This document shows positions 19,063 to 23,263 of a stretch of DNA of 64,000 nt, piece by piece. Under the pieces are notes generated by a model that did no database searches, had not been told where the DNA came from, and was given only the letters and a program-made list of their open reading frames with translations. Location of the stretch: assembly GCF_000377405.1 (NCBI RefSeq), contig NZ_KB905023.1, positions 1 through 64,000 on the forward strand, given 5' to 3'. The stretch's first letter is position 1; each line of letters opens with the position of its first letter. The DNA is from Thioalkalivibrio sp. ALE31. Lineage in GTDB: Bacteria; Pseudomonadota; Gammaproteobacteria; Ectothiorhodospirales; Ectothiorhodospiraceae. The position numbers were made by a program, and so were the translations under genes.

Positions 19063-19241
19063 AGTTGTTCCGGGCTATTCCCGGGAAACTGAACCATGCC
19101 GGCCTTCGGCGGCACGCTGAACCGCCCGCTCGGCAGACCGGAAGTCCCATGATTTCAGGCGTTGCTCGAGAGGGCTGGGGACTACCGGCATAATCGCGGT
19201 CCAGCGAACGGGACTGCCGGCAGACCAAGGAAAGTCACGCG

Positions 19242-21353
19242 ATGGCGAGCGTAAAAAGTACCTGCTACGAGTGCGATGCGAACTGCGCGATCGACGTGCA
19301 CCTCGACACGAACGGCGAGCCGGTGAAGATCGACGGCCCCGACTGCCCGCGCTGCTACGTCCAGCTGGATCGACGCAACCATCCCGAACGCCTGCTGCAC
19401 CCGCTGCGGCGCACCGGACCGCGCGGTAGCGGCGAGTTCGAGCGGATCTCCTGGGACGAGGCGCTGGATACCATCGCCGAGCGCCTGCGCGCGACCCGGG
19501 ACGCGCACGGTGCCCCGGCGGCGGCGTTCTTTGCCGGCTACACCAAGGAGGCGCGGCCGCAGCTGCAGCGCCTGGCGCATGCCTTCGGCTCGCCCAACTA
19601 CCTGACCGAGAGCGGCTGCTGCTTCTCCGCCACCAAGGTGGCGGAGGAGGTGACCTTCGGCACCAAGATCAAGACCTCCTCCACCGTGGCCTCGGATGCA
19701 ACCCGCTGCCTGCTGGTGTGGTCCACCAACCCGCGCGGCTCCATCCCGCCGTTCCATCAGCATGCGCTGGCCGCGGCACGCCCCGGCTGCGCCACCGTGG
19801 TGGTCGACCCGCGCGTGACCCCGCTGGCGGAACAGGCCGAGGTACACCTGCAGATCCGCCCGGGCACGGATGGCGCGCTGGCGCTGGGCATGCACTACCT
19901 GATCTTCGAGAACGGCTGGCAGGACCAGGCCTTCCTCGACGAATGGGGCAACGGGGTGGAGGCCTTTCGCGAATACGTGTCCGGATTCCCGCCGCAGCGG
20001 GTGGCGGCGATCTGCGGCATCGAGGAGGACGATCTGAGGCGCACCGCCGAGCTCTACGCGACCCGCGCCCCGGCGCAGATCATGCTCTCGCCCACCGCCA
20101 CCGTGCAGCATTCCAACGGCTTCCAGAATCACCGCGCGGTTACCCTGCTGGCTGCGGTCACCGGCAACATCGACCGCGAGGGCGGCAACCGCTTCTTCAA
20201 CGACAAGGTCACGCCGCAGCCGATCGACCTGTTCGACCACTGCAAACAGAACCTGCCGCCGCGCATCGGCGACGAGACCTTCCCGGTGTGGACGGCCCAC
20301 TGGCCGGCGGCGCAGAGCATGCTGCTGCCGGACGCGATCCTCGACGGCCGGCCGCAGCAGGTGCGCTCGCTGCTGGCGATGGGCATCAACACCGCGATGT
20401 GGCCGAACTCGAAGCGCATGGAACAGGCGCTGGGGGCGCTGGATTTCTTCGCCGTGTCGGACTTCTTCCACAACCCGGCCACGCGCATGGCGGACATCGT
20501 GCTGCCGGCCGCCACCAGCCTCGAGCGCCCGGCGCTGATCGCCTATCCCGGCTGCAACTTCCGGGGCGAGCTGCGTTACCGGCATCAGGCGGTGGACCCG
20601 CGCGGCGAGGCACGCGCCGACGCCGAGGTGTTCCTCGAGCTGGGCGTGCGCCTGGGGATGGCGGAGCAGTTCTGGAACGGCGATCTGGAGGCGAGCTGGG
20701 CCGAGGCCGCCGCGGGCATCCCCGAGACCATCCGCGAGCAGGTGTACAACGACCCGGACGGCGTGACCGTGTTCGCCAAGGCGCTGGACGACATGGTCGA
20801 GCACGGCTTCGAGGAGGGCGACCGCCAGTACCGCCTGCACGGCTTCCGCACGGTCAGCGGCAAGGTGGAGTTCGACGCCGCCGAGCTGCGCGAGGCCGGG
20901 CACGACGGGCTGCCGGTCTGGCGTGAGCCGGCCGAGAGCCCGGTTTCCACGCCGGAGCTGGCGCGCGACTATCCGCTGGTGCTGACCAGCGGCGCGCGCC
21001 ACAAGCACGCTACCCATTCGCAGCACCAGTACCTGGAGCGCATGCGCCGGGCAATGCCGGAGCCGCTGGTGGAGCTGCACCCCGAGGATGCCGCGGCGCG
21101 CGGCATCGCTGATGGCGACACCGTGGAGGTGCGCTCGCCGCGCGGGCGGGTCGCCTTCGTGGCGAAGGTCACCGACCGCATCAAGCCCGGTGTGGCGCAC
21201 TGCCAGCACGGCTGGAACCACGCCAACGTCAACGAGCTGACCGACGCCCGCAACCTCGACCCGATCAGCGGCTTCCCCGCGTTCAAGTCGCTGCTGTGCG
21301 AGGTGGAACGCCTGCACGCCGGGCACGAGCAACGCCTGCCGGAGGCGGGCTGA
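19242..21353 (+). CDS. Cytosolic molybdopterin (bis-MGD) oxidoreductase, unknown substrate
   Basis: This 703-residue member of the DMSO-reductase superfamily has an N-terminal [4Fe-4S] motif Cys8-x2-Cys11-x3-Cys15...Cys35. The candidate metal ligand is a Cys-Cys pair (126-127) in TESGCCFSATK. The central pterin-binding domains are complete, and the C-terminal molybdopterin-dinucleotide domain (LVLTSGARHKHATHSQHQYL ... QHGWNHANVNELTD) closes the fold. No Tat signal is present, so it is cytosolic, unlike most respiratory members. The gene is followed 2 bp later by an ATP-grasp-like gene and no electron-transfer subunit is adjacent. The reaction is unknown; mobA/mobB/moeA at 46-49 kb would supply the cofactor. 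Confidence 0.88.
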   Translation: MASVKSTCYECDANCAIDVHLDTNGEPVKIDGPDCPRCYVQLDRRNHPERLLHPLRRTGPRGSGEFERISWDEALDTIAERLRATRDAHGAPAAAFFAGYTKEARPQLQRLAHAFGSPNYLTESGCCFSATKVAEEVTFGTKIKTSSTVASDATRCLLVWSTNPRGSIPPFHQHALAAARPGCATVVVDPRVTPLAEQAEVHLQIRPGTDGALALGMHYLIFENGWQDQAFLDEWGNGVEAFREYVSGFPPQRVAAICGIEEDDLRRTAELYATRAPAQIMLSPTATVQHSNGFQNHRAVTLLAAVTGNIDREGGNRFFNDKVTPQPIDLFDHCKQNLPPRIGDETFPVWTAHWPAAQSMLLPDAILDGRPQQVRSLLAMGINTAMWPNSKRMEQALGALDFFAVSDFFHNPATRMADIVLPAATSLERPALIAYPGCNFRGELRYRHQAVDPRGEARADAEVFLELGVRLGMAEQFWNGDLEASWAEAAAGIPETIREQVYNDPDGVTVFAKALDDMVEHGFEEGDRQYRLHGFRTVSGKVEFDAAELREAGHDGLPVWREPAESPVSTPELARDYPLVLTSGARHKHATHSQHQYLERMRRAMPEPLVELHPEDAAARGIADGDTVEVRSPRGRVAFVAKVTDRIKPGVAHCQHGWNHANVNELTDARNLDPISGFPAFKSLLCEVERLHAGHEQRLPEAG

Positions 21354-21355
21354 CC

Positions 21356-22195
21356 GTGCCCTTCGTTGGTGTTCTGCCCGAGCGCCGGCACCTCTTCCGG
21401 CCGCAGCCGCGTCGCGAGGTGGCGGTGTCGGATGCCGCCGCCTGGCGCTTGAACCCCGCGCATCGGCATGTCTACGACAAGCTGCGCCTGGCCCTGGATG
21501 CGGGCCTGACCGCCGCGCCCTGCGGGGTCGCGCCCACGGACCTGGGGCTGGACGCGGCGGACACGGTGTTCGTGAAGCCGATCACCAACCTCGCCGGCAT
21601 GGGGCTGGATGCGCGTGCCCTGCCCGCTGGCGAGGTGCCGGCCGAGCCCGGCAGCTTCTGGTGCCAGCGCCTGGAGGGCGCCCACACCAGCACCGACTGC
21701 CTGGTGGAGAACGGCGAGGTGCGCTGGTTCGCCCACACCCGCGGCTCGGACGAGAAGGACGCCGCACGTCCGATCTACTGGGAGATCGGCGCCGCCGTGC
21801 CCGAGGTTGAGCCGTGGATCGCCGACTGGGTGCGGCGCAACCTGACCGGATACAGCGGCATCTGCAACATCGAGCTGATTGGCGAGCGACCGATCGAGGC
21901 CCACCTGCGCGGCTCCAACGGCTTCTTTGACTTCTACGGCCCGGCCTTCATCCCGGCCTGGGTGGCGCTGGCAGACGGCGAACCGTTCACCCCGCCCCCG
22001 CCGATCCCCGGCGGCTTCGTCATCTCGGTATTCGGCGAGATCGAACTGCGGGACGCCGACTTCCGAGCCGCCGAGGCAGCCGGCGTGAATCTGCAGCCGG
22101 ACCCGTCCACCCCGGGCCGCGCCGCCATCCTGCGCTGCCAGGATCGCGACGCCGGCTTCGCCCTCTACCAGCACCTGACCGGCCACACGCTGTAA
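21356..22195 (+). CDS. ATP-grasp-like protein coupled to the molybdopterin enzyme
   Basis: This 279-residue soluble protein starts with GTG at 21356, with GGAGG upstream, 2 bp after the oxidoreductase stop. I read ATP-grasp features: the Lys-containing strand VFVKPITNLAGMG (~70-82), the strand FWCQRLEGAHTSTDCLVENG (~100-120), and the metal-site strand NIELIGERPIEAHLRGSNGF (~170-189) with Glu/Arg/Asn positioned as in NxExNPR-type loops. Such proteins ligate a carboxylate to an amine or thiol using ATP. The family is not one I can name, and the role beside a molybdoenzyme is unknown. Confidence 0.7.
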   Translation: MPFVGVLPERRHLFRPQPRREVAVSDAAAWRLNPAHRHVYDKLRLALDAGLTAAPCGVAPTDLGLDAADTVFVKPITNLAGMGLDARALPAGEVPAEPGSFWCQRLEGAHTSTDCLVENGEVRWFAHTRGSDEKDAARPIYWEIGAAVPEVEPWIADWVRRNLTGYSGICNIELIGERPIEAHLRGSNGFFDFYGPAFIPAWVALADGEPFTPPPPIPGGFVISVFGEIELRDADFRAAEAAGVNLQPDPSTPGRAAILRCQDRDAGFALYQHLTGHTL

Positions 22196-22315: not shown

Positions 22316-23263
22316 ATGGAGATCGACCCCGTCATCCGCGAGTGGCTGCGCCTGGCCGGGCAGGCGCCCTCCTCGCACAACACCCAGCCCTGGCGGTTCC
22401 GCGTGGATCGCGCGGGAATCGAGGTCTGGACCGATCCGGCGCGCTCGCTGCCCGTGAACGACCCGACCGGGCGCGAGCGCATCATCAGCTGTGGCTGCGC
22501 GGTGCTGAACCTGCGCGTGGCCGCCGCCGCGGACGGCCAGGGCCTGAACGTGCGCCCGGAACAGGCGGGCGACGGCCCGTTCGTACGCCTGCTGACCGGG
22601 CACCACGGCGGGCCGGACCGGCAGGAGCTGGCACCCCTGCGGGACTGTATTGGCGCACGCCACTCCTGGCGCGGCCGGTTTCGTCCCGACGCACCCGCCC
22701 CGGACATCATCGCAACCCTCGTGCAGGCCGCCCGCCAGGAAGGGGCCTGGCTGCGCCCGGTCACGGACCCGGAATGCCGCGGGGAGGTCGCCGAGCTGGT
22801 CCGGGCGGCGACGGCGGCACAGTGGAAGAACCCGGCCTGGCGGCGCGAGCTGACGCACTGGATGCGCACGCCCTCGCGCGGCGACGGCCTGGCGGTCGGT
22901 CGGTTGAGCGGCGGTCTGACGCGCTGGAGCGTGCGCCACCTGGTATCCGCCCGGGCGATGGCCCGAGACGAGGCCCGCGCGGCCCGGGCCGCCCCGGTGC
23001 TGCTGGCACTGGGCACCGGGATCGAGGGCCCGATGCAGTGGCTGACGGCCGGACAGGCCCTGCAGCGCGTACTGCTCGAGGCCGCGCGGCACGGGCTCTG
23101 CGCCCGTTATCTGAATCAGCCGATCCAGCTGGCCGAATGGCGCCCGAAACTCGCCGAACTGCTGGGCGAGGGCCAGCCACAACTGCTGTTCGCGCTCGGC
23201 CGCCCGGACGGCACGCCCCACCCCACGCCGCGACGCCCGCTGGACGAGATGCTGAAGCGCTGA
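22316..23263 (+). CDS. Acg-type nitroreductase-family protein
   Basis: This 315-residue protein has the FMN-binding signature APSSHNTQPWRF (17-28) typical of the Acg branch of the nitroreductase superfamily. The second half contains PVLLALGTGIEGPMQWLTAG and QALQRVLLEAARHGLCARYL, the dimer and FMN-contact helix. In this branch the two halves form a pseudo-dimer, and some members sequester flavin rather than reduce nitro compounds. It starts 120 bp after the ATP-grasp gene on the same strand, so membership of the molybdoenzyme operon is possible but not certain. Confidence 0.82.
   Translation: MEIDPVIREWLRLAGQAPSSHNTQPWRFRVDRAGIEVWTDPARSLPVNDPTGRERIISCGCAVLNLRVAAAADGQGLNVRPEQAGDGPFVRLLTGHHGGPDRQELAPLRDCIGARHSWRGRFRPDAPAPDIIATLVQAARQEGAWLRPVTDPECRGEVAELVRAATAAQWKNPAWRRELTHWMRTPSRGDGLAVGRLSGGLTRWSVRHLVSARAMARDEARAARAAPVLLALGTGIEGPMQWLTAGQALQRVLLEAARHGLCARYLNQPIQLAEWRPKLAELLGEGQPQLLFALGRPDGTPHPTPRRPLDEMLKR

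Follow-up and report, generated by a model that had tools for sequence, protein, structure and literature searches.

A conserved gene pair coding for a molybdopterin enzyme and a minimal ATP-grasp protein in sulfur-oxidizing gammaproteobacteria

The window considered here is a 64,000-nt stretch of the genome of Thioalkalivibrio sp. ALE31. Two of its genes, both on the forward strand and only 2 bp apart, code for a molybdopterin oxidoreductase of 703 residues (MO; 19242..21353) and a protein of 279 residues (AG; 21356..22195), which an initial annotation had taken for a coupled pair. MO starts with ATG and AG with GTG. A Shine-Dalgarno-like GGAGG (21341..21345, forward strand) lies inside the 3' end of the MO reading frame, 10 nt ahead of the AG start codon, and the same or a similar motif precedes AG in those relatives where the gap between the two genes is short. 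Upstream of MO there is a weak sigma-70-like promoter candidate (19166..19194, forward strand); its 9/12 match to the consensus is suggestive, with 0.3 promoter-like matches expected by chance in the 3.5 kb scanned. Downstream of the pair, at 22316-23263, comes a gene for an Acg/Rv3131-family FMN oxidoreductase in a neighborhood that is not conserved. The initial annotation correctly called this nitroreductase Acg-type (NF047509, 255 bits against a cut-off of 199), but its suggestion that the gene might belong to the cassette has to be dropped: the gene is found near the pair in just three closely related Thioalkalivibrio genomes, at distances of 0.1, 1.1, and 2.9 kb.

MO is a cytosolic bis-MGD oxidoreductase of the DMSO reductase/MopB superfamily. 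The assignment comes from matches to the Molybdopterin (PF00384, 6e-45) and the dinucleotide-binding Molydop_binding (PF01568, 1e-32) domains, from a predicted cysteine ligand of the metal (C127), from its relative of known structure (2e7z, below) and from an alignment of 25 homologues. No Tat signal peptide is present at the N-terminus (MASVKSTCYECDANC), and inspection of the neighborhood revealed no adjacent FeS, membrane or other electron-transfer subunit. Both the signal and the B and C subunits of the respiratory complex iron-sulfur molybdoenzymes are therefore absent, as the initial annotation had observed.

Alignments assign the [4Fe-4S] ligands to C8, C11, C15, and C35 (19263..19346, forward strand), in the spacing C8-x2-C11-x3-C15-x19-C35. 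The spacer before the fourth cysteine is indeed short, as had been noticed: x19, as against x27 in the formate dehydrogenase of HDCR and x29 in acetylene hydratase. Most members have a cysteine (C38) for the usual Gly of the CxxG motif. Since the position is Gly in the Thiothrix-type members and in three others (G135, G166, and G280), C35 is the residue taken to bind the cluster. An Asp (D12) stands immediately after C11 in every member whose N-terminus is present. The Cys-Cys pair seen earlier at the expected metal-ligand position (C126-C127; 19617..19622, forward strand) is invariant in 25/25 homologues, and C127, the predicted ligand, aligns with the ligand cysteine of acetylene hydratase and with that of formate dehydrogenases. 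The next residue, F128, occupies the position of a His in the formate dehydrogenases compared. The AlphaFold model of MO is poor (pLDDT 64).

Which of the known enzymes MO resembles most can be asked of profiles, sequence comparisons and trees. Among the NCBIfam models, formate dehydrogenase alpha scores highest, at 280 bits for a cut-off of 666, and MO falls far below every cut-off listed. The overall fold family and the cofactor domains are those of cytosolic formate dehydrogenases and of HDCR FdhF. From its highest-scoring NCBIfam model, MO could be an ordinary cytosolic dehydrogenase, for formate or a similar substrate, that feeds a soluble carrier, AG being an unrelated hitch-hiker. The low score, the Phe in place of His after the ligand cysteine, and the lack of partner subunits and of any electron-transfer gene nearby all set MO apart from that group, and we regard this as the least probable of the readings discussed here.

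The best PDB sequence relative of MO is acetylene hydratase (2e7z, E 5e-68). The two enzymes are cytosolic, single-subunit and Cys-ligated, and share the C-D-x2-C motif, in which the second cluster cysteine is directly followed by Asp; we take this Asp (Asp13) to be catalytic in acetylene hydratase, and Cys141 to be its metal ligand. These likenesses would fit a non-redox hydratase or another lyase whose product AG ligates. The identity is only 30%, however, and the surroundings of the ligand differ, with Phe rather than Ile after it and an extra Cys before it in MO. To our knowledge, no ATP-grasp partner has been described for acetylene hydratase. A hydratase or lyase is a rather improbable identity for MO.

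A third relative is the metallopterin-dependent ergothioneine synthase (MES) of Caldithrix abyssi, a cytosolic bis-MGD enzyme that likewise has one [4Fe-4S] cluster and a Cys ligand. MES converts trimethylhistidine to ergothioneine with sulfur taken from cysteine and is a proven case of a molybdenum enzyme that forms a C-S bond (PMC9516567). MO shares about 35% identity with MES-type modules, compared to 30% with acetylene hydratase and 27% with formate dehydrogenase; one protein of genome G165 comes closer, at 38%. Unlike MES, MO has no cysteine desulfurase domain at its C-terminus: it ends at 703 residues, whereas the MES-type relatives carry PF00266. The cluster motif is CYECDANC in MO and CGxCPAGC in MES, and the ligand motif GCCF and ALCY, respectively. 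In a tree of 26 rows, MO and its homologues form a deep clade of their own with full support, lying among acetylene hydratase, MES, and the formate dehydrogenases. The best tree joins MO to MES with support of 16/0, that is, without a supported join; the alternatives, one of them MO with an acetylene-hydratase-like clade, are neither supported nor rejected (p-AU 0.385 for the latter and 0.45). As the placement of the clade is left this wide, sulfur transfer by MO is only a lead.

The second protein, AG, has no sequence match in Pfam, NCBIfam or the PDB, and a profile search of PDB sequences returned chance matches only. That it is a real gene follows from the pattern of substitution: changes fall mostly at the third codon position in 3/3 relatives tested, and against the closest of them 40/50 changed codons are synonymous. 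An AlphaFold model built with 28 homologues has a pLDDT of 93.2 and a pTM of 0.89. When compared with the PDB by Foldseek, the model gave 256 matches at E <= 0.001; the 50 best were all ATP-grasp enzymes or complexes with one, and PurK (4e-10), L-amino-acid ligase, biotin carboxylase, and PylC were among the top structures. AG is thus predicted with high confidence to have the ATP-grasp fold, which is the outcome the initial annotation had anticipated from motifs. It represents a family of ATP-grasp proteins that escapes the current profiles of Pfam and NCBIfam.

The model is minimal. The strand that bears K74 begins at residue 70 and no N-terminal sheet precedes it, so the pre-ATP-grasp N-terminal domain, which is usual but not obligatory in the superfamily, is missing. 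This sets AG apart from PurK, the L-amino-acid ligases, PylC, and biotin carboxylase, which it resembles in the predicted fold and in the residues of the ATP and metal sites. These residues we take from general knowledge of ATP-grasp enzymes and from motifs, and they are nearly all conserved among 36 AG and distant homologues, a result that the initial annotation had named as support for a joint system. The predicted ATP lysines are K42, in the DKL motif of a linker helix (21479..21481, forward strand; K in 35/36), and K74, in an FVKP motif (21575..21577, forward strand; K in 33/36 and R in 3/36, those of G135, G166, and G280). The predicted metal-site segment, E173 ... E181-x-H183-x-R185 (21872..21910, forward strand), has all four named residues invariant (36/36), and a weak hhalign alignment puts it in register with a bona fide ATP-grasp_4 protein. 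H183 takes the place of Asn in the usual ExNxR, an Asn that is common but not universal in ATP-grasp enzymes. ExHxR is accordingly a change at one site and not a loss of the fold.

A scan of contigs identified 35 AG loci, in Thioalkalivibrio, Ectothiorhodospira, Chromatiaceae, and Thiothrix. MO lies upstream on the same strand within 4.8 kb at 31 of them, within 413 bp at 28, and the spacing is 2-5 bp in many genomes. In an order-level survey, AG was present in 15/47 genomes and MO in the identical 15, at identities of 86% or more; the next-best matches elsewhere were at 36%. Four genomes of a class sample of 369 also carry both genes (G135, G166, G208, and G280), as do 12/12 named genomes of Chromatiaceae and Thiothrix type, even where the genes are unlinked; the twelve had been picked to include ones whose AG had first appeared without MO. 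All 31/31 genomes with close AG homologues (15 + 4 + 12) thus carry MO. The survey that the initial annotation called for therefore bears out a pairing conserved across several families, although the gene fusion it also envisaged was not seen. Pairwise distances of MO and AG are correlated (r 0.93, 0/2000 permutations), which indicates that the two travel together. Such co-occurrence and co-divergence also speak against AG as a hitch-hiker beside a dehydrogenase. The pair is patchy and co-inherited. Among the plasmids of PLSDB, no AG turned up.

The pair is tied to sulfur-oxidizing gammaproteobacteria, among them phototrophic purple sulfur bacteria amenable to laboratory culture. In the class sample, SoxB occurs in 8/8 MO genomes against 151/369 overall, the eight coming from six genera and the comparison being uncorrected for kinship. 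No neighbor other than MO and AG is common to several families. A glycine-betaine-type ABC transporter and a K+ channel were considered as further members and set aside as lineage-local, to Thiocapsa and Thioalkalivibrio, respectively. In Thioalkalivibrio sp. ALJ7 (L031:8001-8837), AG has one in-frame TAG, through either decay or a sequencing error, whereas MO is intact.

The dependence of the two genes is not symmetrical. MO (67-68% identity) occurs without AG in two genomes of 100% completeness, G120 and G349, and no close AG homologue was found without MO. AG thus looks like the dependent, downstream partner of MO and not the reverse. The initial annotation had raised the possibility that the second protein acts on the first, as a chaperone or a modifier, and this provides the main rival to a metabolic role: AG would be a dedicated maturation or modification factor that uses ATP to ligate a group to MO or its cofactor, or aids insertion, and MO would handle its substrate by itself. 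It would explain why no close AG homologue is found without MO, and why the genes are coupled by 2-5 bp in many genomes. The missing N-terminal domain, which serves small-substrate binding in many ligases, would also fit a protein substrate. But a dedicated factor should hardly be dispensable in the two complete genomes with MO alone, and in genomes of Thiocapsa KS1, Thiorhodococcus, and Thiothrix the two genes lie apart.

Distant relatives of AG offer a further argument. These proteins of 300-320 residues align with AG in hhalign (100%, 35% identity), have the same conserved site, and likewise go undetected by Pfam. An AG-like gene (~315 aa) stands directly before one for a Peptidase_S15/CocE-type hydrolase at L091:1240-4187 (reverse strand), L093:4822-7338 (forward strand), and L094:9417-11359 (forward strand). 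The partner of this second family is thus an alpha/beta hydrolase, unlike that of AG, and no MO was found in the genomes with such pairs. This suggests that, taken as a whole, the family has small molecules or peptides and not MO as its substrates. A maturation role for AG is, on balance, possible but unlikely.

The coupling of a molybdenum enzyme to an ATP-grasp protein is met once more elsewhere. In G201 and G311, the MO homologues are built like MES: each, at 1140 aa, fuses a Mo module to a class V aminotransferase. A full-length ATP-grasp_4 gene follows directly downstream. The two arrangements, L128:4777-9545 (reverse strand) and L129:8939-13775 (forward strand), belong to two genomes of one genus, and the ATP-grasp protein differs from the minimal AG. 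There is no mention of the arrangement in the part of the MES paper available to us (PMC9516567). No ATP-grasp gene adjoins the MES-type genes of G193, G171, and G421, so the recurrence rests on a single genus.

The likeness to MES raises the question of whether MO also serves ergothioneine synthesis. It could be a desulfurase-free sulfur transferase for trimethylhistidine that draws on persulfide carriers of the cytosol, and AG would conjugate ergothioneine or trimethylhistidine. MO is closer to the MES-type modules than to acetylene hydratase or formate dehydrogenase, as given above, and EgtD is found in 14/15 of the AG genomes of the order; in one genus (g5, Ectothiorhodospira-type) the species with EgtD are precisely those with AG. 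The AG gene of Thiothrix caldifontis has a DsrE-like gene and an ergothioneine cluster (EgtB-EgtD) for neighbors (L060:8001-11642), MO being located elsewhere in the genome; in Thiohalocapsa ML1, Egt genes are near the pair, separated from it by unrelated genes. EgtD, however, is common anyway (135/369 genomes of the class sample, or 37%) and is absent from three genomes with MO (G120, G349, and G208). Canonical EgtB is also present in Ectothiorhodospira genomes with AG, one genome (G421) contains MO as well as a MES-type protein, and the tree lends no support to a MO-MES join. In a Chromatiaceae MAG, a MES-type fusion (L150:982-4401, reverse strand) is found besides MO and AG, so neither molybdenum enzyme is a simple replacement of the other. 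Because EgtD is missing from three MO genomes and frequent elsewhere, and because MO and MES-type proteins coexist, we do not classify MO among the ergothioneine synthases; the pathway was discarded as the main answer, and such a role for the pair is quite doubtful.

In sum, the pair is real, conserved, and uncharacterized, and it brings together enzymes of known kinds in a combination that we did not find in the literature. (The enzyme of a Thioalkalivibrio arsenite paper is SoeABC-like and was not demonstrated to be MO.) We prefer the view that MO and AG probably produce or modify a small molecule, which retains the metabolite-forming role proposed by the initial annotation. More specifically, and with somewhat less than even confidence, the two would catalyze consecutive steps of a short pathway in the cytosol, MO tailoring a substrate and AG ligating the product with ATP. 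MO stands alone as a Mo/W bis-MGD enzyme with a single [4Fe-4S] cluster, and its substrate would be a small organic molecule. The reaction at its metal would most likely be sulfur-atom transfer or a comparable tailoring step, and not respiratory electron transfer. AG would then activate a carboxylate with ATP, as an acyl phosphate, and join the MO product to a second molecule through an amide or similar bond. We infer the order of the reactions, the action of AG on the MO product, what kind of chemistry MO performs, and the ligation partner. The presence of MO in genomes without AG is the asymmetry expected if AG is the downstream enzyme. A bolder version, which we consider improbable, makes MO a metallopterin sulfur transferase of a new class: it would form a C-S bond on a cytosolic metabolite with sulfane sulfur derived from sulfur oxidation, and AG would conjugate the thiolated product.

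We found no precedent in the literature for a molybdoenzyme coupled to an ATP-grasp ligase. On the bolder reading, sulfur oxidizers would contain a previously unknown low-molecular-weight sulfur compound. A new sulfur metabolite as the product would add to MES, so far the sole molybdenum enzyme described as forming a C-S bond. Otherwise, the pair still is a clean two-gene target for knockout combined with metabolomics.
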